A stretch of DNA of 64,000 bases from Fusobacterium varium (GTDB lineage Bacteria > Fusobacteriota > Fusobacteriia > Fusobacteriales > Fusobacteriaceae), in the NCBI GenBank assembly GCA_002356455.1, contig AP017968.1, positions 3,038,001 through 3,102,000 of the forward strand. The letters are read 5' to 3'. Every line of letters begins with the position of its first letter. Position 1 is the stretch's first letter. This document shows positions 1-17,846 of this stretch, in pieces. The position numbers and the translations under genes are program-made. Below the pieces are notes generated by a model. That model made no database searches. It was not told the DNA's origin and saw only the letters and a list, made by a program, of their open reading frames with translations.

Positions 1-390
1 TCACTTTTATTGAATTCAAAAGAAAAAAATGTAACAATGATTGATACTTTTATATCTAATAAAGAAGATTCTCTTTATGTTACCACAAAAAATGGAGAAC
101 TTCTAAATATCTCTAAGGGAAAATACAGTCTTGAAAAAATTTCAGGAGAACTTATAGGAATTAGTAAATTAAAATATAATTCATATTTAAAAATGCTTGA
201 TAAATTTACCCAAATAGAAAATAAATTATTTTTTTATGAATATAGTTTTTTAGATAAAAATATTTTTTCAGATTTAAAATGTATATCTTCTAAAGAAAAA
301 ATATGGGGAGAAATAGATAATCAAAAGCAATATAGATATATAAAGAGCAATATATTAAAGAGTTTAGATAAAAAGGAGAAAAATTTATGA
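1..390 (+). CDS. C-terminal part of a LicC/PntC-like nucleotidyltransferase (cut by window edge)
   Basis: The reading frame is open to the first base of the window, so the true start lies upstream and only the last ~129 residues are seen. By eye these residues align with the C-terminal half of the next gene: both share a GEL(T/I)G-type stretch, a following Phe/Tyr-rich segment and a closing W-(S/G)-EID-x-x-x-Q motif. I infer a tandem paralogue of the cytidylyltransferase downstream. The stop overlaps the next start by 4 bases (ATGA), so the two are translationally coupled. The catalytic N-terminal half is not visible, so activity cannot be judged. Confidence 0.55.
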   Translation, partial: SLLLNSKEKNVTMIDTFISNKEDSLYVTTKNGELLNISKGKYSLEKISGELIGISKLKYNSYLKMLDKFTQIENKLFFYEYSFLDKNIFSDLKCISSKEKIWGEIDNQKQYRYIKSNILKSLDKKEKNL

Positions 391-1115
391 AAACAGCTGT
401 AATACTTGTGGCAGGTATGGGAACAAGACTCAGAGGAGTAACCAATGATGAAATTCCTAAGCCTTTTTTAACAATAAACGGATTATCGCTTATTGAAAGA
501 TCAATAGAGAAATTGTTAGATTCAGGTATTAAAAAAATAATATTGGTTACAGGACATTTAGATTATTTTTTTGAACCTCTTAAAAAAAAATACAATAACA
601 TTATTACAATAAAAAATAACAATTATGCTAATACAAGCAGTATGGGAAGTTTCTATTGTGCTAAAGAGTTGATTGGCAATGATGATATTCTTCTTTTAGA
701 AGGAGATCTTATCTATGAAAAGAATTGTCTGAATATATTGATAAATACTCCTGAAAAAGATACAATACTTTTATCTGAAGATAAAAAAATGTCTGATGAT
801 TATTATTTTGAAATAATAGACAATGGTATTGGAAAACTTACTTTCAATTTATTTGAAATTAAAGGAGAATATGGAGAACTTACAGGATTGCAAAAATTAT
901 CAAATGAATTATGCCATTTAATGTTTAAAAAATATGAAGATGAAAAAAATCTTAAATTAGGTTATGAATATTGTATGGAAAAAATAGCAAAAGATAGAAA
1001 AATTACTTGCAAAAGAGTAGATGGTATTATTTGGTCTGAAATAGATGATGAATTTCAGCTAAATAGAGTAATGGAAACTATTTATCCTAAACTTTTAGAA
1101 AAAGGAGAAAATTAA
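387..1115 (+). CDS. LicC/PntC-like CTP:phosphocholine or 2-aminoethylphosphonate cytidylyltransferase
   Basis: This is a 242-residue cytoplasmic nucleotidyltransferase of the sugar-phosphate NTP-transferase fold. The nucleotide-binding loop AGMGTRLRG is at residues 9-17, followed by PKPFL at 24-28. NTSSMGS at 82-88 resembles the choline/AEP cytidylyltransferase motif. LLEGDLIYE at 103-111 supplies the metal-binding Asp. Known LicC/PntC enzymes make CDP-choline or CMP-2-aminoethylphosphonate for transfer to surface glycans. Here it lies directly upstream of an AEP-type ABC importer whose permease carries a LicD-like domain, which favours 2-aminoethylphosphonate as substrate; phosphocholine remains possible. 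SD aaaaggag precedes the ATG. Confidence 0.72.
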   Translation: MKTAVILVAGMGTRLRGVTNDEIPKPFLTINGLSLIERSIEKLLDSGIKKIILVTGHLDYFFEPLKKKYNNIITIKNNNYANTSSMGSFYCAKELIGNDDILLLEGDLIYEKNCLNILINTPEKDTILLSEDKKMSDDYYFEIIDNGIGKLTFNLFEIKGEYGELTGLQKLSNELCHLMFKKYEDEKNLKLGYEYCMEKIAKDRKITCKRVDGIIWSEIDDEFQLNRVMETIYPKLLEKGEN

Positions 1116-1117
1116 TT

Positions 1118-2137
1118 ATGAAAAAACTATTAAAAATTTCTGTTCTTTTTATTCTTTCTGCATTTCTTTTTGGATGCGGTAATAAAGAAAATAAAACTGT
1201 CTTAAATGTTTATACTGGATTGGAAGAAGAATATTTAAATCACTATATTGAAATATATAAAGCAGACTTTCCAAATATAGAACTTAATATAATTAGAGAT
1301 TCTCAAGGAGCCATTGCTGCTAAAGTGATTGCTGAAGGGGATAATCCTGTAGCTGATGTTTTATGGGGAATGGCAAGTATAAATTTAATTGATTTAGCCA
1401 ATCAAAAAAAATTGGCTGAATTAAATAAAGACTGGCTAGTAAATATTGATCCTGCATATATTGATTCTATCAATGAAAAGCCTCAATGGACAGGTATGAC
1501 AGCTTGGACTTCTGCAATTACAGCTAATAAATATGAATTTACAAAAAAAAGTCTACCTCTTCCTAATTCATATATGGATCTTCTTGATAAAAGATACTAT
1601 AAAGAAGTTGTTATGCCTAACCCTGCCTCTTCTGGAACTGGTTATCTTACAATATTGGGTTGGATAAGTATATGGGGTGAAGAAAAAGCCTGGGAATATA
1701 TGGATCAACTTCATAAAAATATATCTCAATATTCTCATTCTGGAAGTGCACCAGTTAAAATGGCTATGCAGGGAGAACAACTAATTGGTGTTGGGATGGA
1801 TAGTGAAAGTATCAGACTTGGAAAAACAAATGAATCTATAGTTACTATTCTTCCTAGTGAAGGATATGGCTGGGATATGGAAGGAATTGCTCTTGTAAAA
1901 AAGGATACAATTAAACCAGAAGCTATTGATTTTATTAATTGGGCTCTTTCAAAAAAAATGATGGAAGAATATTCAAAAAATATTGGGCTAGTTTCATATA
2001 AAGGTATGAATACAAAACTTGAAGGTTACCCTGCAGATTTTAAAGAAAAACTGGCTAACATAGATTTTAAATGGGCATCAGAAAACAGAGAAAGATTACT
2101 TAAAGAATGGGAAAAAAGATATGGTAAAGGAGAATAA
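1118..2137 (+). CDS. Substrate-binding lipoprotein of a 2-aminoethylphosphonate-type ABC transporter
   Basis: This is a 339-residue extracytoplasmic solute-binding protein. It has a lipoprotein signal peptide with lipobox LFGC and the acylated Cys at residue 20, followed by LNVYTGLEE, typical of the iron/AEP-binding (FbpA/PhnS2-like) family. A DVLWGMAS segment is the hinge-proximal ligand region of that family. It starts two bases after the cytidylyltransferase stop and is followed without a gap by the ATPase gene, so the transporter is co-transcribed with the activating enzyme. Ligand by family and context: 2-aminoethylphosphonate or a similar phosphonate; Fe(III) is the main alternative, but the neighbouring cytidylyltransferase and LicD domain argue against it. 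Confidence 0.72.
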   Translation: MKKLLKISVLFILSAFLFGCGNKENKTVLNVYTGLEEEYLNHYIEIYKADFPNIELNIIRDSQGAIAAKVIAEGDNPVADVLWGMASINLIDLANQKKLAELNKDWLVNIDPAYIDSINEKPQWTGMTAWTSAITANKYEFTKKSLPLPNSYMDLLDKRYYKEVVMPNPASSGTGYLTILGWISIWGEEKAWEYMDQLHKNISQYSHSGSAPVKMAMQGEQLIGVGMDSESIRLGKTNESIVTILPSEGYGWDMEGIALVKKDTIKPEAIDFINWALSKKMMEEYSKNIGLVSYKGMNTKLEGYPADFKEKLANIDFKWASENRERLLKEWEKRYGKGE

Positions 2138-2138
2138 A

Positions 2139-3104
2139 ATGCCTTACTTAGTCATAAAAAATGTAAAAAAACAATTTAATAAAGTAGAAGTTTTAAAAGG
2201 TATTAATTTAGATATAGAAAAAGGAGAATTTATATGTTTTTTAGGTCCAAGTGGTTGTGGAAAAACAACTTTGCTCCGTATAATAGCTGGTCTTGAAAAA
2301 CTTGATTCTGGAAATATTCTAGTTAATAAAAAAGAAATAACAGTTTTAGAACCTTCTCAAAGAAATTTAAGTATGGTATTCCAATCTTATGCTCTTTTTC
2401 CAAATATGACAGTTTTTGAAAATATTGAATATGGATTAAAAAAGAAAATAAAAGATAAACATCAAAGAAAAGAAAAAATTATGAATGTTCTTAAAATGGT
2501 TGGTCTTGATCATATAATTTCAAAGTATCCCGATGAAATGAGTGGAGGACAACAACAAAGAGTATCTTTGGCTAGAGCTCTAGCTCTTGAACCAAATATT
2601 TTACTCCTTGATGAGCCCTTATCAGCTCTTGATGCTAAAGTAAGAGAATCTTTAAGAAAAGAAATAAGAGAAATTCAGCAAAATTTAAAAATAACTACAA
2701 TTATGGTAACTCATGATCAAGAAGAAGCTCTAACAATGGGAGATAAAATTGCTATCATCAATGGTGGAGAAATAGTTCAATTTGGAACACCAGAAGAAAT
2801 ATACAGTAAACCAAAAGATATATTTGTAGCTGATTTTATAGGCAAAATAAATTTCATTACTGATGAAAACAATGATATATACACTGTAAGACCTGAGGAT
2901 ATAGAATATTCTATAGAAAAAAAGGAAAAAACACATAAAGGAACTATTAAAAATATTGAATTTAGAGGTGCTTTTTATAGAATTACTTTAGAATTATTTG
3001 GAGATAACATCTACATTGACATACTATCTAAAGAAAAGGAAAAATTGAACCTTAAAATTAATGATTTTCTTTATATCAAATTAAATGAAAAAAATAACAT
3101 TTAG
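2139..3104 (+). CDS. ABC transporter ATPase, AEP/iron-type importer
   Basis: This is the nucleotide-binding subunit of the importer. Walker A GPSGCGKTT is at residues 36-44, the Q-loop FQSY near 81-84, the signature SGGQQ at 135-139 and Walker B ILLLDEP at 154-160. A VTHDQEEA switch-histidine segment and a short C-terminal TOBE-like extension follow. The start is the ATG of MPYLVIKN at 2139, preceded by aaaggag; an in-frame ATG at 2121 lies inside the upstream gene and lacks an SD. It sits between the binding protein and the permease in one operon. The family (PotA/FbpC/PhnT) is clear; the substrate is inferred from context. Confidence 0.88.
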   Translation: MPYLVIKNVKKQFNKVEVLKGINLDIEKGEFICFLGPSGCGKTTLLRIIAGLEKLDSGNILVNKKEITVLEPSQRNLSMVFQSYALFPNMTVFENIEYGLKKKIKDKHQRKEKIMNVLKMVGLDHIISKYPDEMSGGQQQRVSLARALALEPNILLLDEPLSALDAKVRESLRKEIREIQQNLKITTIMVTHDQEEALTMGDKIAIINGGEIVQFGTPEEIYSKPKDIFVADFIGKINFITDENNDIYTVRPEDIEYSIEKKEKTHKGTIKNIEFRGAFYRITLELFGDNIYIDILSKEKEKLNLKINDFLYIKLNEKNNI

Positions 3105-3113
3105 GAGCTTTCT

Positions 3114-5336
3114 ATGAAAAAAGATAAATTAATAAAAATAATTTTGTCTCTAATTTTAGTTCTTTTTCTTATTATCTCTATAATTTTTCCTATATCTAAC
3201 CTTTTTATAAAAGCTTTTCAAAATAAAAATGGAAATTATGTTGGTCTGGAAAATTTTGCTGAATATTTTAATGATCCTGTTACAGCAAGCTCTCTTACTA
3301 ATAGTTTAAAAGTATCTGTAACTGTAACTATTTTTACAATAGTTCTTGCTTTCTTTTTTTCTTATGGAATAAATAGAAGCAATTTAAAAGGAAAATCCCT
3401 TTTAAAAGGAATTGCTCTTTTACCTTTATTTTCTCCAACTATGACACATGGTATTGCTCTTATATATCTTTTTGGAAGACAGGGAATTATAACTAAAACT
3501 TTCAATCTTTCAATATCCATATATGGATTCTGGGGAATAGTTTTTGCAGAAACAATTTTCATATTTCCAATACTTTTCTTTATGATGGTATTAGCTTTTG
3601 ATTCAGAAGATTATAGAAAATATGAAATGGCTGAAATAATGGGAATAGATAAATTAAAACAATTTTTTACAATAACTATCCCCAATGTCAAATATACACT
3701 AATAACTTGTTTTTTTTCTGGTTTTACTTTAAGTTTTACAGATTTTGGTGCACCTAAAGTTGTAGGAGGAAATTATAATGTTCTTGCTACTGATATATTT
3801 GAAGAAGTAATAGGACAGCAAAACTTTTCTATGGGATCAGCTGTTGGAATATTACTTATAATTCCTGCTTTTCTTGCTTTTATGTTTGATATTTTCATTA
3901 AAAGTAAAAGTTCAAAGATAGATTCAAAGTCTACTAAATATATTATAAAGGAAAATAAAGTAAGAGACACTTTTTTTAAGTTTTTTAACTATATTTTAAG
4001 TTTTATCATAATATCTTTTTTTGCAACAGTTATTTTTGCTTCTCTTGTAAAAACTTGGCCTTATGATATGAGCTTAACTTTTAAATCATATACTTTTACT
4101 ATAATGGGAGAAAGTGTTTGGAAGATTTTTGGCAATAGTATTTTTGTATCAATTTTTTCTGCAGTATTTGGTACTATTTTATGTTTCCTTACAGCATATG
4201 TAGTTGAAAGAGAAAAAAATTATACTATTGTAAGAAAAATAGGATATTTTCTTTCTATACTTCCTAATGCTATTCCTGGACTGACAATAGGACTTGCATA
4301 TATTTTCTTCTTCAATTCTAAAAGTAATATATTAAATTTTTTATATGGAAGTTTTGGAATAATTATCCTTGCAAATATAATACATTTCTTTGCAACGCCT
4401 TTTCTTACTATAACTGCAAGGTTAAAAACTTTAGATGATGAATATGAAACTATTTCTAATATAATGGGAGTTTCATGGTGCAGAACTATTTTTAAAGTTA
4501 TAATTCCTCTATCAATAGATTCTATCCTTGAAAGTTTTTCATATTATTTTATAAATTCTATGATAACTATTTCAGCAGTTATTTTCCTCTACACATCAAG
4601 AACTAGACTTATATCTGTAATGATGATAAGTAAAAATGATGCAGGAGATATAGGAACTGCTGCTGCAATATCTGTAATGATTATTTTTGTAAATATAATT
4701 TTTAAGATAATTTTTGACCTTTCAATAAAATATATAAGAAATAAAAATTATAATAAAAAAAGAAAAGATTCAATAAAAAAAGAAAAACAAGGTGAAAATT
4801 TACTTTTGACTGGTAAAGAGGTTCTAGAAATATTGAATAAAACTTCTCAAAAAACTGGTGTAAAATATTGGCTGGAATTTGGAACACTACTTGGAAAAAT
4901 CAGAGAAAATAATTTTATAGGTCATGACATTAACTTTGATATTGGAATAATGAAAGAAGAACTCATTCCGAAATTTATAATAGACATAGAAAATGAAGGA
5001 TTTAAAAGAATCTCTTCTTTAAGTTTAAAAAATGAAGGTCTTAAAAATATAAAATATGAATACAAAGGAATTGAAATAGAAATGTTCCTTTTTGATAGAG
5101 AAGATAATAAAGTAATATGTTATCTGGAAGATAAAAATGGTATTATTTCAGTATATAAGCTTTCAAACTCTACATTAAAAGAAACTAAGTTTATGGGAAT
5201 AGATACTTATATTCCAAGAAATTCTTTAAAAAGACTTCTTGAAATATATGGAAAAAATTTCAATATATCAGATCCAGACTGGAAGGAAGAAATGAGTCCA
5301 AGCAGATATATTTCTGAAAAAATAAAAGATGCATAA
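3114..5336 (+). CDS. Fused two-domain ABC permease plus C-terminal LicD-like transferase domain
   Basis: This is a 740-residue fusion. Residues 1 to ~545 are a FbpB/PhnU2-like double permease with about 12 hydrophobic segments and two EAA loops (EMAEIMGID near 172 and ETISNIMGVS near 444). After a Lys-rich linker, residues ~565-740 form a soluble LicD/fukutin-type nucleotidyltransferase-fold domain: FGTLLGKIRENNF with GTLLG at 590-594, then HDINFD with candidate metal-binding Asp605 and Asp609. Family permeases of this class are about 545 residues, so the extra domain is unusual. LicD enzymes transfer phosphocholine or similar groups from a CDP/CMP carrier to glycans. I infer coupling of uptake and glycan decoration. 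The DNA runs through the junction without a stop, so the fusion is real in this sequence. Confidence 0.75.
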   Translation: MKKDKLIKIILSLILVLFLIISIIFPISNLFIKAFQNKNGNYVGLENFAEYFNDPVTASSLTNSLKVSVTVTIFTIVLAFFFSYGINRSNLKGKSLLKGIALLPLFSPTMTHGIALIYLFGRQGIITKTFNLSISIYGFWGIVFAETIFIFPILFFMMVLAFDSEDYRKYEMAEIMGIDKLKQFFTITIPNVKYTLITCFFSGFTLSFTDFGAPKVVGGNYNVLATDIFEEVIGQQNFSMGSAVGILLIIPAFLAFMFDIFIKSKSSKIDSKSTKYIIKENKVRDTFFKFFNYILSFIIISFFATVIFASLVKTWPYDMSLTFKSYTFTIMGESVWKIFGNSIFVSIFSAVFGTILCFLTAYVVEREKNYTIVRKIGYFLSILPNAIPGLTIGLAYIFFFNSKSNILNFLYGSFGIIILANIIHFFATPFLTITARLKTLDDEYETISNIMGVSWCRTIFKVIIPLSIDSILESFSYYFINSMITISAVIFLYTSRTRLISVMMISKNDAGDIGTAAAISVMIIFVNIIFKIIFDLSIKYIRNKNYNKKRKDSIKKEKQGENLLLTGKEVLEILNKTSQKTGVKYWLEFGTLLGKIRENNFIGHDINFDIGIMKEELIPKFIIDIENEGFKRISSLSLKNEGLKNIKYEYKGIEIEMFLFDREDNKVICYLEDKNGIISVYKLSNSTLKETKFMGIDTYIPRNSLKRLLEIYGKNFNISDPDWKEEMSPSRYISEKIKDA

Positions 5337-5499: not shown

Positions 5500-6978
5500 C
5501 TAAGCTACTTTTAATGAGTGAAGTGTTGTTCCTAAGCGATTATTTATATTTCTGCTTAGATATCTGTTGAAGTTGTAAGCGATACAAAACAAACATATTT
5601 CTCTTAAAACACTTTTTTTACTTCGAACTTTTAATTTTCGCAATTTCATATCTTCTTTCAAAACTGCAAAAGCACCTTCTACTTGAATACTTCTGTTCAT
5701 TCTTAATTGTTTTCCATAATTGCTTGATACATTCTCTTTTGATTTATTTGATAAAATTCTAAATCTCGCATTGTACTTAATTTTTTTGTTAGTTTCAGGA
5801 TTCCAAAAATATTGAACTGTATTATTTTTGTTAGAGTATAGAAATTCTAATTCTAATCCATCTTTTCTAAATAGCTTATTTTCAGAACTATTATATATTA
5901 AATTTTCTACTCTGTTTAAATCATTTTTAAACTTTCTGATTTTAGATTTTTCAAAATATATTGGTTTTATGTATGAAGTATAGTCCATTTTTTCCAAATA
6001 TTCATAATTTGAAATACTTTCATATCCTGCATCAGCTACAATATTTTTAATTTCTAAATTTTGAGATGAAATTTTCTCTAAAAATGGAATCAAAGTTTTA
6101 GAATCAGAAGGGTTAGAAAAAATTTCATATGAAGAAATATATTCACTAATCACTCCTATTTGTAGATTATATCCAGGTTTTAATTGACCATTTCTCATAT
6201 GGTCATCTTTCATTCTCATAAAAGTAGCATCTATATCAGTTTTTGAATAGCTATTTCTACCATTAAGATTTTTAAAATGATTAGAATATTTTTGATACTT
6301 TTCTAAGTATTCTGCGCATAATTCTAAATACTTTTGCTCTTTAGATTTTCTCTTTCCTCTACCTTTGACTATTTGAAAATTCAAATTAGAAAGATATGAA
6401 TATATTTCAAGGAAGTTGTCATATTGTAAGTTGAAATCATCATTAAAATTTGAAATTAGTTCAAGAATTTTTTTATCTAATCTATCTCTGTATTTCTCAA
6501 TAGATTTTTTCCAAACAAATGTATATTTATTAGCATATGCTTCAATTTTAGTGCCATCAATATATATTGTTTCAGTGGAAATATTTTCCATTTCAAAAAT
6601 TTTTTCAACGAATTGTTCAAATAGATCTGGAAGAATATCTTCAGTTTTTACTAAGAATCTAGAAATAGTAGAGTGATCAGGAATTTTAGAATCTTGTAAA
6701 AGAAACCTAAATTTAATATTTTCATGGCAAGCCATTTCTATATCTCTAGTAGAAGTTAAATTGCGCGAATAGGCATAAACAATGATAGAAAACATTCTGA
6801 TAGGATGTACCTTTGTTTTGTAAGAAAATGCTTGCATTAAACTACTAAAATCTAATCCCTCCAATATTGAGCTAAGTTTTCTTACAGGATCATCATCAGA
6901 AATTTCATATTGTAAAAAATTAAAAAGTTTAGGTTGATTTAATTGAAAAAAAATGTTATTATTAATTGGTTTTTGCAT
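5500..6978 (-). CDS. IS1182-family DDE transposase
   Basis: The protein has 492 residues, the usual length for the family. The N-terminal region (DPVRKLSSILEG, residues 30-41) and a mid-region DHSTISRF (101-108) are typical of IS1182/IS5-like transposases. The likely catalytic triad is Asp141 (YIDGTKIEA), Asp316 (VADAGYE) and Glu434 (VEGAFAVLKED). The frame is intact, so the element may be active. No SD precedes the ATG; instead a TATAAT box ends about 7 bases upstream, suggesting a leaderless, weakly translated message. The second copy at the window end differs by two of the first 40 residues. Confidence 0.93.
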   Translation of the reverse strand: MQKPINNNIFFQLNQPKLFNFLQYEISDDDPVRKLSSILEGLDFSSLMQAFSYKTKVHPIRMFSIIVYAYSRNLTSTRDIEMACHENIKFRFLLQDSKIPDHSTISRFLVKTEDILPDLFEQFVEKIFEMENISTETIYIDGTKIEAYANKYTFVWKKSIEKYRDRLDKKILELISNFNDDFNLQYDNFLEIYSYLSNLNFQIVKGRGKRKSKEQKYLELCAEYLEKYQKYSNHFKNLNGRNSYSKTDIDATFMRMKDDHMRNGQLKPGYNLQIGVISEYISSYEIFSNPSDSKTLIPFLEKISSQNLEIKNIVADAGYESISNYEYLEKMDYTSYIKPIYFEKSKIRKFKNDLNRVENLIYNSSENKLFRKDGLELEFLYSNKNNTVQYFWNPETNKKIKYNARFRILSNKSKENVSSNYGKQLRMNRSIQVEGAFAVLKEDMKLRKLKVRSKKSVLREICLFCIAYNFNRYLSRNINNRLGTTLHSLKVA

Positions 6979-7115: not shown

Positions 7116-8465
7116 TTAAAATCCCATTTTCTTTAATTCAGAGACAAGCTGTACATAAAACTCTACAACATCAAATCCCTTATAATCCTGTCTTTTTAAA
7201 TCTATAATATCTCCATGAGATATTCCTCTATGATATTCATTTTTTATAACACCTTTAAAAGTTCCCCATTTAGCAGAAGATATGCTTACTAATCCATCAT
7301 TTTCTCCTTCCAAAATTTTAATAAAAAAATATGGAATAGTCAATAAAATATCACTAAAACAATCTTTCATTATAGAAATATAACTTTGATAATATACTAA
7401 TGTAGAATCAACTACATTTTTATTAAATTCTTCACTGCTGTATGTTGTAAATTGATGAGTTGCACTATAAAAATCTGGATTTTTATCTCCCAATCTTTTA
7501 AAAATATTATCATAAAATTTAGCAACTCCTCTATAAATTCTTTCAGGTAATTTACACATTTTATCAACAAAAAGACATCCCCTATGTGGAGTACTTATAG
7601 TTGTAAGTGAAGCAGTATACTTGTCCATTCCCAATATACTTATAGCATAACGTGAATCCAATCCACCTTTAGAATGTGCTATTATATTAACTTTTTCACT
7701 TCCAGTTTCTTTTATCACTTCTAATATTTTTTTCTTAATATCTTCTCCATTATACTCAATAGTTCCAAATGCTTCCTGATTTCCATAATAAATAGAAACT
7801 CCATATCGCATTAATTCTCTTGGAATCCGTCCCCAATAATTAAAGTGCCTGGAATCTCTAAATCCAACTCCATGTACAAGTATTATTGGATATTTTGTTT
7901 TACATATATCTGATTCTGCTCTTATTTCCTTTAGAGATGCTTTATAGCATTCAAATTCATACTCCCATTTTATAATTCTTAAAGTATAAAAAAGAATTAA
8001 AATATTTATTACTGGTATCCAAATAGTGAATATTAGCAAAATTCTTTTTCTAAAGCTCAACCATTTTGAAGTAAAAAAAATACGAATAATTCCATTCAGA
8101 AAAAGGAAAAAATTTATTCCAAAAGCATATAATCCATTAAACCACAATATTTCATTATAGTTTATATCTTTAAGTAATGGATATAAAAATATAATTATCC
8201 CTGTTTGAAGTAAAAAACCATAAAAGGAATATAAACATAGAGTTCTTCCACCTATCATTATTCTTAATCTTTTTCCAGCATATTCTTCTTTCCTATGTGG
8301 GAAAAGATTAAGATATATCCATAAACTAAATATTAATAAACTAAATATAACTGTCAGAAAAATATTTCTAGTATTTTTATAAAAATAAAACATGAGTAAA
8401 GGAATATTAGCAGCAACAGGTATATAAAAAAATGAAAATATTTTTTTTATTAAGCGAAGTATCAT
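7116..8465 (-). CDS. Membrane-anchored lipase-like alpha/beta hydrolase
   Basis: The product has 449 residues. The N-terminal ~170 residues contain several hydrophobic spans, then a soluble alpha/beta-hydrolase domain begins with IILVHGVGFRDSRHFNYWG. The oxyanion motif is HGVGF and the nucleophile elbow is AHSKGG; ENDGLVSI and SHGDIID supply candidate acid and His residues. This matches the secreted triacylglycerol-lipase family, here tethered to the membrane. I place the start at the ATG preceded by aaaggaggaaaaggag, 20 codons inside the longest frame. The stop abuts the IS right end, so insertion may have changed the last codons or removed downstream DNA. Substrate unknown. Confidence 0.75.
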   Translation of the reverse strand: MILRLIKKIFSFFYIPVAANIPLLMFYFYKNTRNIFLTVIFSLLIFSLWIYLNLFPHRKEEYAGKRLRIMIGGRTLCLYSFYGFLLQTGIIIFLYPLLKDINYNEILWFNGLYAFGINFFLFLNGIIRIFFTSKWLSFRKRILLIFTIWIPVINILILFYTLRIIKWEYEFECYKASLKEIRAESDICKTKYPIILVHGVGFRDSRHFNYWGRIPRELMRYGVSIYYGNQEAFGTIEYNGEDIKKKILEVIKETGSEKVNIIAHSKGGLDSRYAISILGMDKYTASLTTISTPHRGCLFVDKMCKLPERIYRGVAKFYDNIFKRLGDKNPDFYSATHQFTTYSSEEFNKNVVDSTLVYYQSYISIMKDCFSDILLTIPYFFIKILEGENDGLVSISSAKWGTFKGVIKNEYHRGISHGDIIDLKRQDYKGFDVVEFYVQLVSELKKMGF

Positions 8466-8489
8466 TTCTCCTTTTCCTCCTTTAAACTT

Positions 8490-8525
8490 AAAAAAGTGAT
8501 TCAAAGAAAATATTTTTTGAATCAC
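8490..8525 (-). terminator. Rho-independent terminator of the ATP-grasp/esterase operon
   Basis: The minus strand reads GTGATTCAAA, a loop, TTTGAATCAC, then six T residues. It lies between the 92-codon gene and the lipase-like gene, so the lipase is probably transcribed separately or only by read-through. Confidence 0.75.
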
Positions 8526-8537
8526 TCTTTGATTATA

Positions 8538-8816
8538 TTACTTTTCTACAATTTCATTTGTAATATCTTTAGCATAATAAAAAGGATATTTTTCATTAAA
8601 GAACTTTTCTCCTAAAATTTGAGTTTCTTTAATAAATCTTTTTATAAGGTCATACTCTCCAATAGTTTCAATAGAAGTTTCAACTATTTGTACTTTTTTT
8701 ACTTCTTCATCAGTTAATTTTTTTAATATTTTGTTAATTTCATCTTTAGTATTCATATTAAGCCATTTCTTTATTACAGGATCATTTTCTGTTTCTAAAA
8801 AAATACTATAATACAT
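8538..8816 (-). CDS. Small uncharacterised acidic protein
   Basis: A 92-residue soluble protein I do not recognise. It is rich in Lys, Glu and Ile and predicted to be mostly helical, with no signal peptide and no Cys. SD gaggggt precedes the ATG. It is the last gene of a four-gene minus-strand operon (ATP-grasp protein, two esterases, this protein), starting 27 bases after the second esterase and followed by a strong terminator. Its position suggests a role with those enzymes, but nothing in the sequence names one. Confidence 0.65.
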   Translation of the reverse strand: MYYSIFLETENDPVIKKWLNMNTKDEINKILKKLTDEEVKKVQIVETSIETIGEYDLIKRFIKETQILGEKFFNEKYPFYYAKDITNEIVEK

Positions 8817-8843
8817 ATATACCCCTCCATATTTTATATTATC

Positions 8844-9599
8844 TCATTTAAGTCCCAATTCAGTCATCCATATAGGATTTTCCATCTCCCATGAAGCTTC
8901 GTTATGTCCACCTTCCACCATTAAATGAGGAAACACTTGAACACCTTTAAATGTTAATATTCTGCTTATAATCAGATTTTTTTCAGACTCTACAGCTAAT
9001 TGTTTTTTAGAATGTACTTCATATCTTCCCCAGCTAATATAAAATTTTGTTTCTGAATTTACCTCAGTTTTTGACAGTTCTTCTACAAGTTTTTTAAATA
9101 TATGCTCATAAAAAGGTGAAAGACAAGCTCCCATAGAAAATATATCTGATCTTATGGCAGTTCCATAAATTGACATAAGTCCTCCCATAGAACTTCCTCC
9201 AAGTCCAGTAAATTTCCTTTCTGGAAGTGTTGGAAACCTTTCATCTATCAGCGGTTTTAAATAGTCAGCTATCCAGTTTATTAATATTTTACCATATCCT
9301 TTTACGCTTCCAAAATATTTATCTTTAAAAGAATAAGGTGAAAATTCCCAAAGCCTTTTATTCCCCTCATGGTTACATTCCAGTCCCACAATCATTATTC
9401 TTGTATTAGAATTATCTAAAAAATCTTTTATTCCCCAAGATTTTCCATAAGTTGCATCTGAATCAAAAAATAAATTATGTCCATCAAACATATACATTAC
9501 AGGAAACTTTTCTCCTTCTTTTATATCATCAGGAATATATATATGTAAAAGTCTGTTTAAACCAAAAGGTTCAATGAAAATCTCATGTTTTAAAACCAT
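8844..9599 (-). CDS. Esterase-family alpha/beta hydrolase (FrmB/esterase D-like)
   Basis: The protein has 251 residues and no signal peptide. The opening contains FPVMYMFDGHNLF, typical of putative-esterase (PF00756-type) proteins. The nucleophile elbow is GLGGSSMGG with the central Ser, and EGGHNEASWE near the C-terminus supplies the catalytic His. Family members hydrolyse carboxylic esters, including acyl-sugars, S-formylglutathione and siderophore esters. It starts 19 bases after the preceding hydrolase of the same fold, with SD aaggag. Two esterases in series behind an ATP-grasp ligase suggest processing of a shared product. The natural substrate is not evident. Confidence 0.8.
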   Translation of the reverse strand: MVLKHEIFIEPFGLNRLLHIYIPDDIKEGEKFPVMYMFDGHNLFFDSDATYGKSWGIKDFLDNSNTRIMIVGLECNHEGNKRLWEFSPYSFKDKYFGSVKGYGKILINWIADYLKPLIDERFPTLPERKFTGLGGSSMGGLMSIYGTAIRSDIFSMGACLSPFYEHIFKKLVEELSKTEVNSETKFYISWGRYEVHSKKQLAVESEKNLIISRILTFKGVQVFPHLMVEGGHNEASWEMENPIWMTELGLK

Positions 9600-9618
9600 A
9601 GTAAGCTCCTTCAGTAAA

Positions 9619-10374
9619 TTATAGTACTACATCTAAAAAATATGGAAACTGTATCTTCCACCATGGCCAATCATGATCCACATCATATCCCCAAAAATCA
9701 GTCCACACTGGTACTTGAAGATGTTTAAAACTCTCTTTTAGACTGTTTGTATCCTCTATACATTCTTTTTCCCATCTGCCTTGTCCACAGCAAAGTATTA
9801 TTTTTGAGTTCCTGTACATATTCAAATAATAATGATTCCATGGCATATTTCTCATATAATCAACTGGAGAATTATTATAAATTACTTCATTATTATAATT
9901 TGGAAAAAAATATCCTGCATGATAAAGTCCGCTTAGAGCAATTACTCCATCAAAAATATCTGGGCGTCGAAGAAAAAAATTCAATGCATGATATGCTCCC
10001 ATGCTGCATCCTGTTGTAAAAAATTTCCCTTTATAATATTCCCCAGAGCTTTCTCCATAAATTTCTCTAAACTTTGGTATAGCTTCCTCTATAATATAAT
10101 TAAACCATTTCTCATGTTGTACTATTCTCCAATGATAATCTCCACCTATTTGTGACCAACTTTCCCAATCTATTCCATCTACACAAAAAAGTTGCAGTTT
10201 TCCTTCTTCAATAAATCTTGAAGCAGCATCTACCATTCCAAAATTAAAAAAATCATAAAATCTTCCATCTTGTGCTGGAAAAACTATACATGGTTTTCCA
10301 TTATGTCCATATACTGTAAATTCCATTTCTCTTTCTAATATATGGCTGTATTCTTTATAGTAAGCTGTATGCAT
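9619..10374 (-). CDS. Esterase-like alpha/beta hydrolase
   Basis: The protein has 251 residues, the same length as its neighbour but clearly divergent from it. FTTGCSMGAYHAL carries the nucleophile Ser in a GCSMG elbow, followed by DIFDGVIALSGLYH. YDVDHDWPWW near the C-terminus supplies the likely catalytic His. There is no signal peptide. A strong SD, aggagg, precedes the ATG, and the gap to the upstream ATP-grasp gene is 20 bases. The family is esterase-like and the function unknown. It may be a true second activity rather than a recent duplicate, since the two esterases share little beyond the fold motifs. Confidence 0.75.
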   Translation of the reverse strand: MHTAYYKEYSHILEREMEFTVYGHNGKPCIVFPAQDGRFYDFFNFGMVDAASRFIEEGKLQLFCVDGIDWESWSQIGGDYHWRIVQHEKWFNYIIEEAIPKFREIYGESSGEYYKGKFFTTGCSMGAYHALNFFLRRPDIFDGVIALSGLYHAGYFFPNYNNEVIYNNSPVDYMRNMPWNHYYLNMYRNSKIILCCGQGRWEKECIEDTNSLKESFKHLQVPVWTDFWGYDVDHDWPWWKIQFPYFLDVVL

Positions 10375-10394
10375 ATTCTGTGTCCTCCTATATT

Positions 10395-11585
10395 TTAATA
10401 TTTTTTCAAATAGAAATCAATAAATTCAAAACATTCTTGTATATCACAGAATCTTGCAGTAATCATATCATTTCCCATAGCTACCGAAAATATATCTGGC
10501 ATTCTTTCTTTCATTACTATATTATCTCTATACTTAGCCAAAGTTTCTTCCCTACTGTAAACATATCTATGGTTATCTCTCCTAGCTGCATATACACAAT
10601 TATATGGTCTAGATTGAGTATCAAAATACCCTTGATTATATGCCACCATATTTGCCCATATCTGATATACATCTATATCATTTGCAAAATTCATCATATC
10701 AGGAGTATATCCCCCTGGTGGACGCATATTTACTTCAAGACCAATTATTTCTCCTTTTTTTCCAAGACCTTTTTTATCGTTTAAAAGCCTAAAAAATTCA
10801 CAATGAAAAAACCGGCTGTTAGTATCAAATGCTTGTATCACTTTTCTTCCAGCTTGTTTTAAATCTTCAGGAATTTCCTTATATGAATAGTACATAACAT
10901 CAGCTTGTTCATTTACTATATCCATTATAGGAATAGGATATGCATGAGCTGTTTCAAATATTATTTCCTTATCCTTTCCAGCTATACCATCATATGATAA
11001 AAGTTCTCCATCTACAAACTCTTCCATAATGTACTCAACTGATGGAAGATCTCTATAAAAATATCCAAGTTCTACATCATTTATTAATTTGTACGTTGCT
11101 GCTGCTCCTACTCCATTGTTAGGTTTTACAACCACTGGATATCCAACTTTATCTATAAATGCTTTTCCCTCTTCATAATTAGTTACAATATGATATCGAG
11201 CACTTGGTACTCCAGCTTTTTCATAAAATTTTTTCATTACACTTTTATATTTTATTCCTGCTATTTTATCATTTTTAAGCCCTGTATTAATATTAAAATC
11301 TGTACGGAGCTGTGCATCTCTTAAAAGCCAATATTCATTATTAGATTCCAGCCAGTCTATATGCCCATATTTATATGCAAAATATGCACATGCACGATAA
11401 ACTTCATCATAATTTTCTAATGAAGATACTTTATAATATTCATTTAAAGAATTTTTTAATTCATCTGTTAAACTATAGTATTCCTCTTCTCCTATTGCTA
11501 AAGTATTTATTCCATTATTTTTCAACCCTCTGCAGAAATTCCAATAATTTTTTGGAAAATTTGGTGAAATAAAAATAAAATTCAT
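10395..11585 (-). CDS. ATP-grasp family carboxylate-amine/thiol ligase-like protein
   Basis: The protein has 396 residues. The ATP-grasp core is clear: YPVVVKPNNGVGA for the ATP-binding Lys loop, VEYIMEEFVDGELLSYDG for the hinge, and GLEVNMRPPGGYTPDMMN for the metal-binding Glu and Asn residues. ATP-grasp enzymes of this type join a carboxylate to an amine or thiol through an acyl-phosphate. It heads the four-gene operon with two esterases and a small protein. I infer that the ligase makes an amide or peptide-like conjugate that the esterases process or mature. The SD aaggggg is strong. Specific substrate unknown. Confidence 0.75.
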   Translation of the reverse strand: MNFIFISPNFPKNYWNFCRGLKNNGINTLAIGEEEYYSLTDELKNSLNEYYKVSSLENYDEVYRACAYFAYKYGHIDWLESNNEYWLLRDAQLRTDFNINTGLKNDKIAGIKYKSVMKKFYEKAGVPSARYHIVTNYEEGKAFIDKVGYPVVVKPNNGVGAAATYKLINDVELGYFYRDLPSVEYIMEEFVDGELLSYDGIAGKDKEIIFETAHAYPIPIMDIVNEQADVMYYSYKEIPEDLKQAGRKVIQAFDTNSRFFHCEFFRLLNDKKGLGKKGEIIGLEVNMRPPGGYTPDMMNFANDIDVYQIWANMVAYNQGYFDTQSRPYNCVYAARRDNHRYVYSREETLAKYRDNIVMKERMPDIFSVAMGNDMITARFCDIQECFEFIDFYLKKY

Positions 11586-15716: not shown

Positions 15717-16895
15717 ATGAGTATAAGAGAAAGAATGTCAGGAAATGAAGCTATTGCAATAGCAATGAGACAAATAAATCCAGATGTAGTACCTGCTTTT
15801 CCAATCACTCCATCGACAGAAATACCACAATATTTCTCTCAATATGTTGCTGATGGTTCAGTAGACAGTGAATTTATTCCAGTGGAATCAGAGCACAGCG
15901 CTATGTCAGCTGCAATGGGATCACAGGCTGCAGGAGCTAGAACTATGACAGCTACTTCATCATGCGGACTTGCATTGATGTGGGAAATGCTTTATGTTGT
16001 ATCTTCTGCAAGACTTCCTATAACTTTAGCATGTGTTAACAGAGCTCTTACAGGACCTATCAATATCAATGCAGATCACAGTGATTCTATGGGTGCAAGA
16101 GATGCTGGATGGATTCAGTTATATAGTGAAACAAACCAGGAAGCTTATGATAATATGCTTCAGGCTAACAGAATAGGAGAACATCCAGATGTTCAGCTTC
16201 CTGTAATGGTATGTCAGGATGGATTTATAACAAGCCATGCTGTTGAAAATATAGAATTATTAGAAGATGACAAAGCTAAAGCATTTGTTGGAGAATATAA
16301 ACCTGAAGATTATCTTTTAAATGCAAAAAGACCTACAGCAGTAGGACCATATGATATAGTTTCTTACTATATGGAGCATAAAGTAAATCAGGCTCATGCT
16401 ATGATGAATGCTAAAAAAGTTATTCTTGAAGTAGCAGCGGAATATGAAAAACTTACTGGAAGAAAATATGGCTTATTTGAAGAATATAAGCTGGATGATG
16501 CAGAAGTTGCAATAGTAGTTATCAACTCAACTGCTGGAACAGCTAAAGCTGCAATAGAAGAAATGAGAAAAGAAGGTAAAAAAGTAGGACTTCTAAAAAT
16601 CAGAGTATTCAGACCATTCCCTATGGAAGAAATAGCACAGGCGCTTAAAAATATAAAAATGGTAGCAGTAATGGATAAATGTGAGGGATTCTCAGCAGCT
16701 GGAGGACCAGTATTTGCAGAGGTAAGATCAGCGCTTTATGACTGCAGCCCAAGACCAAAAATGATCAACTATGTTTATGGACTTGGAGGAAGAGATATAA
16801 CTGTTAATCATATAAAAGAGATCTTTAATACTCTACTGGCTGAAAAAGATCAGGAAGTTAAAGACACATATAGACATTTTGGTGTAAGAGGGTAG
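15717..16895 (+). CDS. porA: Pyruvate:ferredoxin oxidoreductase, alpha subunit
   Basis: The protein has 392 residues. The N-terminal pyrimidine domain carries AFPITPSTEIPQYFS and VESEHSAMSAAMGSQAAGAR. The glycine-rich SCGLALMWE and ALTGPININADHSDSMGARD segments belong to POR alpha chains. The C-terminal domain-II region (AKAAIEEMRKEGKKVGLLKI, RPFP) is complete. It forms the catalytic core with PorB. SD ggagg at 15704-15708 precedes the ATG. The gene shows a visible drift from T-ending to A-ending codons along its length. Confidence 0.92.
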   Translation: MSIRERMSGNEAIAIAMRQINPDVVPAFPITPSTEIPQYFSQYVADGSVDSEFIPVESEHSAMSAAMGSQAAGARTMTATSSCGLALMWEMLYVVSSARLPITLACVNRALTGPININADHSDSMGARDAGWIQLYSETNQEAYDNMLQANRIGEHPDVQLPVMVCQDGFITSHAVENIELLEDDKAKAFVGEYKPEDYLLNAKRPTAVGPYDIVSYYMEHKVNQAHAMMNAKKVILEVAAEYEKLTGRKYGLFEEYKLDDAEVAIVVINSTAGTAKAAIEEMRKEGKKVGLLKIRVFRPFPMEEIAQALKNIKMVAVMDKCEGFSAAGGPVFAEVRSALYDCSPRPKMINYVYGLGGRDITVNHIKEIFNTLLAEKDQEVKDTYRHFGVRG

Positions 16896-16907
16896 GAGGA
16901 AAGGAAT

Positions 16908-17846
16908 ATGGCATATAATTTCAAAAAAGAAATGGAAAAACCTGAAAGACTTACTGGAGGACACAGAATGTGTGCAGGGTGTGGAGCACCAGTAGCAGTA
17001 AGAGGAGTATTAAGAGCACTAAAAGAGGAAGATGAAGCTGTAATATGCAGTGCAACAAGCTGTCTTGAAGTATCAACTTTCCTATATCCATATACAGCAT
17101 GGAAAGATTCATTCATTCACTCAGCATTTGAAAATGCAGCAGCAACAATAAGCGGAGCGCAGACTGCATATAAAGTATTAAAGAAAAAAGGAAAAATAGA
17201 TGAGTCATATAAATTCATAGCTTTTGGAGGAGATGGAGGAACTTATGATATAGGATTCCAGTCACTGTCTGGAGCAATGGAAAGAGGACATGACATGGTT
17301 TATGTATGTTATGACAATGAAGCATATATGAATACAGGTATTCAAAGATCATCAGCAACACCTATAGGAGCAGATACAACAACAACACCTATAGGAAAAG
17401 AAAGCGCAGGAAAACCACAGGGAAGAAAGGATCTTACAGATGTAATATCAGCTCACAATGTGGCATATGTAGCACAGACAACATTTATAGGAAACTTCAA
17501 AGACCTTCATGAGAAAGCGGAAAAAGCAATCTACACAGAAGGAGCAGCATTCCTTAATATATTAGCACCATGCCCAAGAGGATGGAGATATGAGGGAGAA
17601 GATTTAATGGAAATGTGTAAACTGGCAGTAGAAACTTGTTACTGGCCATTATTTGAAGTAATAGATGGAGAATGGAAATTAAGCTACAGACCAAAAGTAA
17701 AATTACCAGTAGAAGAATTCCTAAAAAAACAAGGAAGATTTAAACACTTATTCAAACCGCAAAACAGACATATCATAGACAGAATACAAAAAGATGTGGA
17801 TTTGAAATGGGAAAGACTTCTTAAGAGATGTGGAGAAGAAATTTAA
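16908..17846 (+). CDS. porB: Pyruvate:ferredoxin oxidoreductase, beta (thiamine-diphosphate) subunit
   Basis: The protein has 312 residues. GGHRMCAGCGAPVAVRG contains two of the Cys residues that ligate the proximal 4Fe-4S cluster. FGGDGGTYDIGFQSL followed by YDNEAYMNTGIQ is the thiamine-diphosphate/Mg motif (GDG...N). It ends the por operon and is followed by a clear terminator. Codon choice is strongly A-ending (GCA, GTA, ACA, AGC), unlike porC at the other end of the same operon. Confidence 0.93.
   Translation: MAYNFKKEMEKPERLTGGHRMCAGCGAPVAVRGVLRALKEEDEAVICSATSCLEVSTFLYPYTAWKDSFIHSAFENAAATISGAQTAYKVLKKKGKIDESYKFIAFGGDGGTYDIGFQSLSGAMERGHDMVYVCYDNEAYMNTGIQRSSATPIGADTTTTPIGKESAGKPQGRKDLTDVISAHNVAYVAQTTFIGNFKDLHEKAEKAIYTEGAAFLNILAPCPRGWRYEGEDLMEMCKLAVETCYWPLFEVIDGEWKLSYRPKVKLPVEEFLKKQGRFKHLFKPQNRHIIDRIQKDVDLKWERLLKRCGEEI

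Follow-up and report, generated by a model that had tools for sequence, protein, structure and literature searches.

An operon of the gut bacterium Fusobacterium varium ends in a gene that joins an ABC double permease and a LicD-fold domain in one reading frame (positions 3114 to 5336, plus strand, of the window, by which we mean the whole stretch of 64,000 nucleotides analysed). The best explanation we can offer is salvage-type phosphonate tailoring, i.e. a counterpart of the Lic1 pathway adapted to 2-aminoethylphosphonate (AEP), in which the fused domain would have a non-catalytic role. Judging from sequence, we give this joint claim a probability of about 0.4. The pathway part alone (AEP import, activation with CTP and surface decoration) is considerably more probable, and there is good support for import and activation. 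We regard the operon as a previously undescribed form of the Lic/Pnt type of pathway. A preliminary description of this DNA was aware of no published permease-LicD fusion, and none was found in the open-access literature.

The frame runs uninterrupted from the ATG at 3114 to the stop codon at 5336 and encodes 740 amino acids. Residues 1-545 (3114..4748) form a double permease of the PhnU2/AepU type; within them, residues 8-545 pass the NCBIfam PhnU2 model TIGR03262 with 639.5 bits against a cut-off of 593.25. A basic linker (residues 546-570; 4749..4823) leads into the LicD/FKRP-fold domain (residues 571-740; 4824..5336). The Pfam LicD model PF04991, with a cut-off of 22.6 bits, gave 27.1 bits on the isolated C-terminal part, aligning profile positions 2-40 of 227 only, and 21.7 bits on the whole protein, slightly below the cut-off. 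An AlphaFold2 model of residues 556-740 (mean pLDDT 85.9) had structures of the human fukutin-related protein (FKRP) as its best PDB matches (Foldseek E 8.6e-7; Z 15.6, rmsd 3.2, 155 residues). The C-terminal part therefore represents the whole LicD/FKRP catalytic-core fold, more than a motif. Frame, both profiles and fold confirm what had been described from the letters, an unbroken fusion of a double permease of about 545 residues and a LicD/fukutin-like domain.

In the full-length AlphaFold2 model (mean pLDDT 75.8) the last transmembrane helix continues through the linker as one helix (residues 507-581) and ends inside the LicD domain. Two EAA loops were located in the permease, with their motifs at residues 171 and 443. 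The second loop is followed by two helices, and the charges alternate in a positive-inside pattern. By analogy with the topology of ABC importers, the C-terminus of the permease and the LicD domain should lie on the cytoplasmic side.

A sequencing error at the junction, a possibility raised earlier, was ruled out, as the same in-frame fusion is found in five assemblies from two genera. These are F. varium, three congeners (G001, G002 and G007) with 90-91% identity and a member of another genus of the same family (G076) with 67% identity, together 5 of the 98 Fusobacteriota genomes; genome-wide statements in this work rest on searches across genome sets. Within the genus, identity amounts to 93.5-95.3% in the LicD part and 87.9-88.6% in the permease. 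The dN/dS ratio is 0.02-0.04 for the LicD part against 0.07-0.13 for the permease, i.e. purifying selection is stronger on the LicD part. We conclude that the fusion has a function and did not arise by a recent accident. Using the LicD alignment as query, no LicD-fused permease was found in 398 Bacillota genomes. Searches with the fused protein as query, covering 391 genomes from a single Bacillota class and 289 from the phylum of Akkermansia, gave none either. The samples, approximately 1,080 genomes of Bacillota and Verrucomicrobiota in all, may overlap and represent these phyla only, and are thus no proof of absence. A further contig search returned unfused relatives only. An extended frame in G898 was rejected as another fusion, because the extension is N-terminal and not LicD.

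The catalytic site of the fused domain was evaluated on an alignment of 17 LicD proteins, 5 fused and 12 non-fused; a full-length MAFFT alignment with stand-alone LicD proteins was misaligned and left out. The FGTLLG motif (4878..4895) has its G, L, L and G invariant in the alignment. FKRP activity requires Asp360, Asp362, Asp364 and Asp416 (PMC6965139). This set is incomplete in the fused domain, where the equivalents are Asp605, Asn607, Asp609 and probably Glu656, the first three forming the metal motif D-I-N-F-D at 4926..4940. At the Asp362 position each of the five fused copies, which sample two independent lineages only, has Asn, and the Asp364 position is Asn as well in G076 (D-x-N-x-N), whereas the non-fused proteins have Asp at both positions (12 of 12). 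Compared with FKRP and the Mycoplasma Mf1 LicD enzymes, the fused domain shares the catalytic-core fold, the GTLLG-type motif and the first Asp, but has Asn at the Asp362 position and is joined to a transporter. These Asp to Asn changes imply that the conventional two-metal site is impaired in F. varium and has apparently been lost in G076. For this reason a non-catalytic domain, product-sensing or capturing/gating, is slightly favoured over an active transferase; the two readings are close.

According to the preliminary description, the fused domain itself carries out the transfer. In the same AEP salvage it would then be a working phosphonate transferase whose metal site is unusual, and import, activation and transfer would be coupled at the membrane. 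We hold this reading at somewhat under even odds. The domain occupies the place of LicD in a lic-like operon, has the full FKRP fold, retains the equivalents of FGTLLG, Arg and Asp360 and is the part under the strongest purifying selection; Asn can in principle participate in metal binding. Furthermore, no other PF04991 protein was found in G076. Given this, and with the LicD domain as the most constrained part of the protein, a non-catalytic role is hard to square with the data unless another transferase family acts. On the other side are the substitutions at two positions that are both essential in FKRP, so that transfer by the fused domain is not supported as stated: the proposed physical linkage holds for transport and a LicD-fold domain, but not for transport and transfer. 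Canonical LicD proteins are present in all four same-genus genomes with the operon, and in F. varium two of them, which could use CMP-AEP, are encoded in an LPS-type locus (L011:6748-7497 and 16446-17207).

In order, the operon encodes a winged helix-turn-helix (wHTH)/pseudo-cytidylyltransferase regulator, a PntC-like cytidylyltransferase, AepS, AepT and AepU-LicD, all on the plus strand. The binding protein, ATPase and LicC/PntC-like nucleotidyltransferases described earlier are thus present, the first nucleotidyltransferase gene encoding a winged-helix and nucleotidyltransferase-like protein. This gene 1 (L009:13452-14390; 312 aa) starts approximately 550 bases upstream of the window, with its 3' part at window positions 1..390. 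Its product combines a winged helix-turn-helix (Pfam HTH_24, 42.3 bits) with a degenerate PntC/LicC-like domain (NTP_transf_3, 33.2 bits) that has lost the GxGxR NTP loop and the catalytic Lys. LicA proteins of other fusobacteria (L093, L094, L095) carry this pair of domains in front of their choline kinase domain, and gene 1 therefore resembles LicA without the kinase. It is likely a regulator or sensor and could respond to AEP or CMP-AEP. No Rfam element was found upstream of gene 1, and no terminator-like site was found 3' of the operon.

Gene 2 (387..1115; 242 aa) has intact catalytic residues. Its best solved relative is PntC of Treponema denticola (6pd1, 157.9 bits, against 56.9 bits for LicC of S. 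pneumoniae, 1jyk). E105 and E194 align with E104 and E196 of PntC, giving Glu at both AEP-amine positions. Glu104 and Glu196 of PntC contact the amine of AEP and are Asp in LicC (Rice et al. 2019, PMC6697681). In G001 the PntC-like gene is split into two frames (L037:13059-13786) while the fused permease is intact; nearby genes also look split, and this may be an assembly error. G076 has a second, degenerate PntC-like protein far from the operon (L091:7977-8648), where GMGTRL has become KMSTKL and the middle part is missing.

The remaining two genes encode an AepS/PhnS2-type phosphonate-binding lipoprotein (1118..2137) with a conserved SSGTG loop, and an AepT/PhnT2-type ATPase (2121..3104). 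Both score slightly below the cut-offs of the equivalog models (TIGR03261, 365.6 bits against 392.75; TIGR03265, 435.6 bits against 457.7), and only the permease is above. The exact substrate is therefore not fixed, which counts against our reading. AEP uptake by AepSTU was shown genetically in Pseudomonas putida (Murphy et al. 2021, PMC8316502); that AepSTU corresponds to the PhnS2-T2-U2 models is our own reading. The operon shares with these importers a binding protein, an ATPase and a double permease of the same family, but their known role is AEP nutrition and they have no LicD domain.

PEP mutase (TIGR02320) is absent from all nine genomes searched, including the five fusion carriers, so that AEP must be imported; its biosynthesis in the same cell was rejected on the same ground. 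Together with the PhnU2 family of the permease and the PntC-type enzyme, this supports the earlier proposal of uptake by an AepSTU-type importer and activation with CTP. That proposal had named 2-aminoethylphosphonate or choline phosphate as the substrate. AEP is the most likely one given the Glu/Glu signature, and phosphocholine was rejected as first choice on the PntC-type residues and on the lack of LicA and LicB in the operon.

Phosphoethanolamine or phosphocholine could be imported and activated by the same architecture instead. Tailoring-type binding proteins score under the PhnS2 cut-off and the catabolic paralogue above it, likely pocket residues differ between the two types, and the passages of PMC6697681 consulted give no PntC kinetics for phosphoethanolamine. 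We nevertheless consider this substrate unlikely, since the enzyme carries the Glu/Glu and not the Asp/Asp signature of LicC, the permease belongs to the AEP family, and no Lic1 locus was found in the five fusion genomes. Only two choline-kinase hits exceeded the cut-off among these genomes (G000 and G002), both located away from lic genes.

F. varium has a second operon (L010:8201-13914) encoding PhnS2, PhnT2, a PhnU2 without LicD, PhnX and PhnW. Here the binding protein, the permease, PhnX and PhnW are above their cut-offs and the ATPase is below (435.2). This is a separate AEP catabolic system. PhnX was not found in G076, and the fused operon cannot feed that catabolic pathway there. That the fusion is a functionless relic, the operon merely supplying AEP to catabolism, is highly improbable: PhnX and PhnW do occur elsewhere in F. 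varium, but the selection on the LicD part strongly disfavours a relic, G076 carries the operon without PhnX, and catabolism in F. varium is already served by the separate operon.

In G076 the fused operon is flanked by glycosyltransferase genes and forms part of a long LPS-type locus, which contains a heptosyltransferase, a Kdo/WaaP-like kinase, glycosyltransferases, a DegT aminotransferase, nucleotide-sugar genes and an MBOAT acyltransferase. This location supports a link of the operon to a surface glycan as the probable acceptor. The lack of PEP mutase, the separate catabolic operon, the lack of PhnX in G076 and the LPS-type setting together indicate that AEP is imported for surface decoration.

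Like the Lic1 pathway (LicA-LicB-LicC-LicD), the operon brings together an import system, an enzyme for activation with CTP and a protein of the LicD fold, and its wHTH/nucleotidyltransferase-like module is shared with fusobacterial LicA proteins. It differs from Lic1 by an ABC importer in place of the kinase and LicB, by a PntC-like rather than a LicC enzyme, and by a LicD domain that is fused to the permease and is without one catalytic Asp. With the Pnt (phosphonyl tailoring) clusters it has the PntC-like cytidylyltransferase in common, and LicD-like proteins occur in Pnt clusters too. Pnt clusters, however, include PEP mutase and produce AEP themselves (PMC6697681), whereas here the genome is without PEP mutase and an importer is present.

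In the mechanism that we prefer, with a non-catalytic fused domain, AepSTU would bring in AEP and the PntC-like enzyme would form CMP-AEP. Imported AEP already has its phosphonate, and a LicA kinase is thus unneeded. The operon would be regulated by the winged-helix protein with its dead PntC-like domain. The LicD/FKRP-fold domain, tethered to the cytoplasmic face of the permease through the continuous helix, is predicted to bind CMP-AEP (or the acceptor), so that the activity of the importer would follow how much activated product is needed or present. Transfer would be made by another enzyme, for which the two canonical LicD proteins in the LPS-type locus are candidates in F. varium. A more tentative extension, which we think will probably prove wrong in some part, is that two pseudoenzymes of one pathway regulate that pathway: a fold without its catalytic carboxylates as a built-in CMP-AEP sensor on an ABC importer, and a dead pathway enzyme as a transcriptional sensor.

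Surface phosphonates of bacteria are generally ascribed to cells that possess PEP mutase. The operon suggests that cells without this enzyme scavenge AEP and display it on the surface, in the way that Lic1 bacteria use choline, and that a single cell keeps two AEP importers apart, one nutritional and the other serving the envelope. The permease-LicD fusion would link uptake and use physically, and is a simple object for testing whether importers are gated by the activated product of a pathway.

Additionally, some features outside the operon were recorded. An IS1182-family transposase (window 5500-6978) adjoins the operon in this strain and is not beside it in the three congeners; near-identical copies are located at L011:429-1907 and 7652-9130. 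On the minus strand, window positions 7116-11585 encode three esterase-like alpha/beta hydrolases and an ATP-grasp protein, a cluster conserved in the congeners. On a plasmid of Octadecabacter arcticus (L070:5775-8476), a cytidylyltransferase-family gene and a gene for a related small LicD domain protein with an intact DxDxD motif adjoin a flagellin gene, and flagellin modification is a possible function of these genes.
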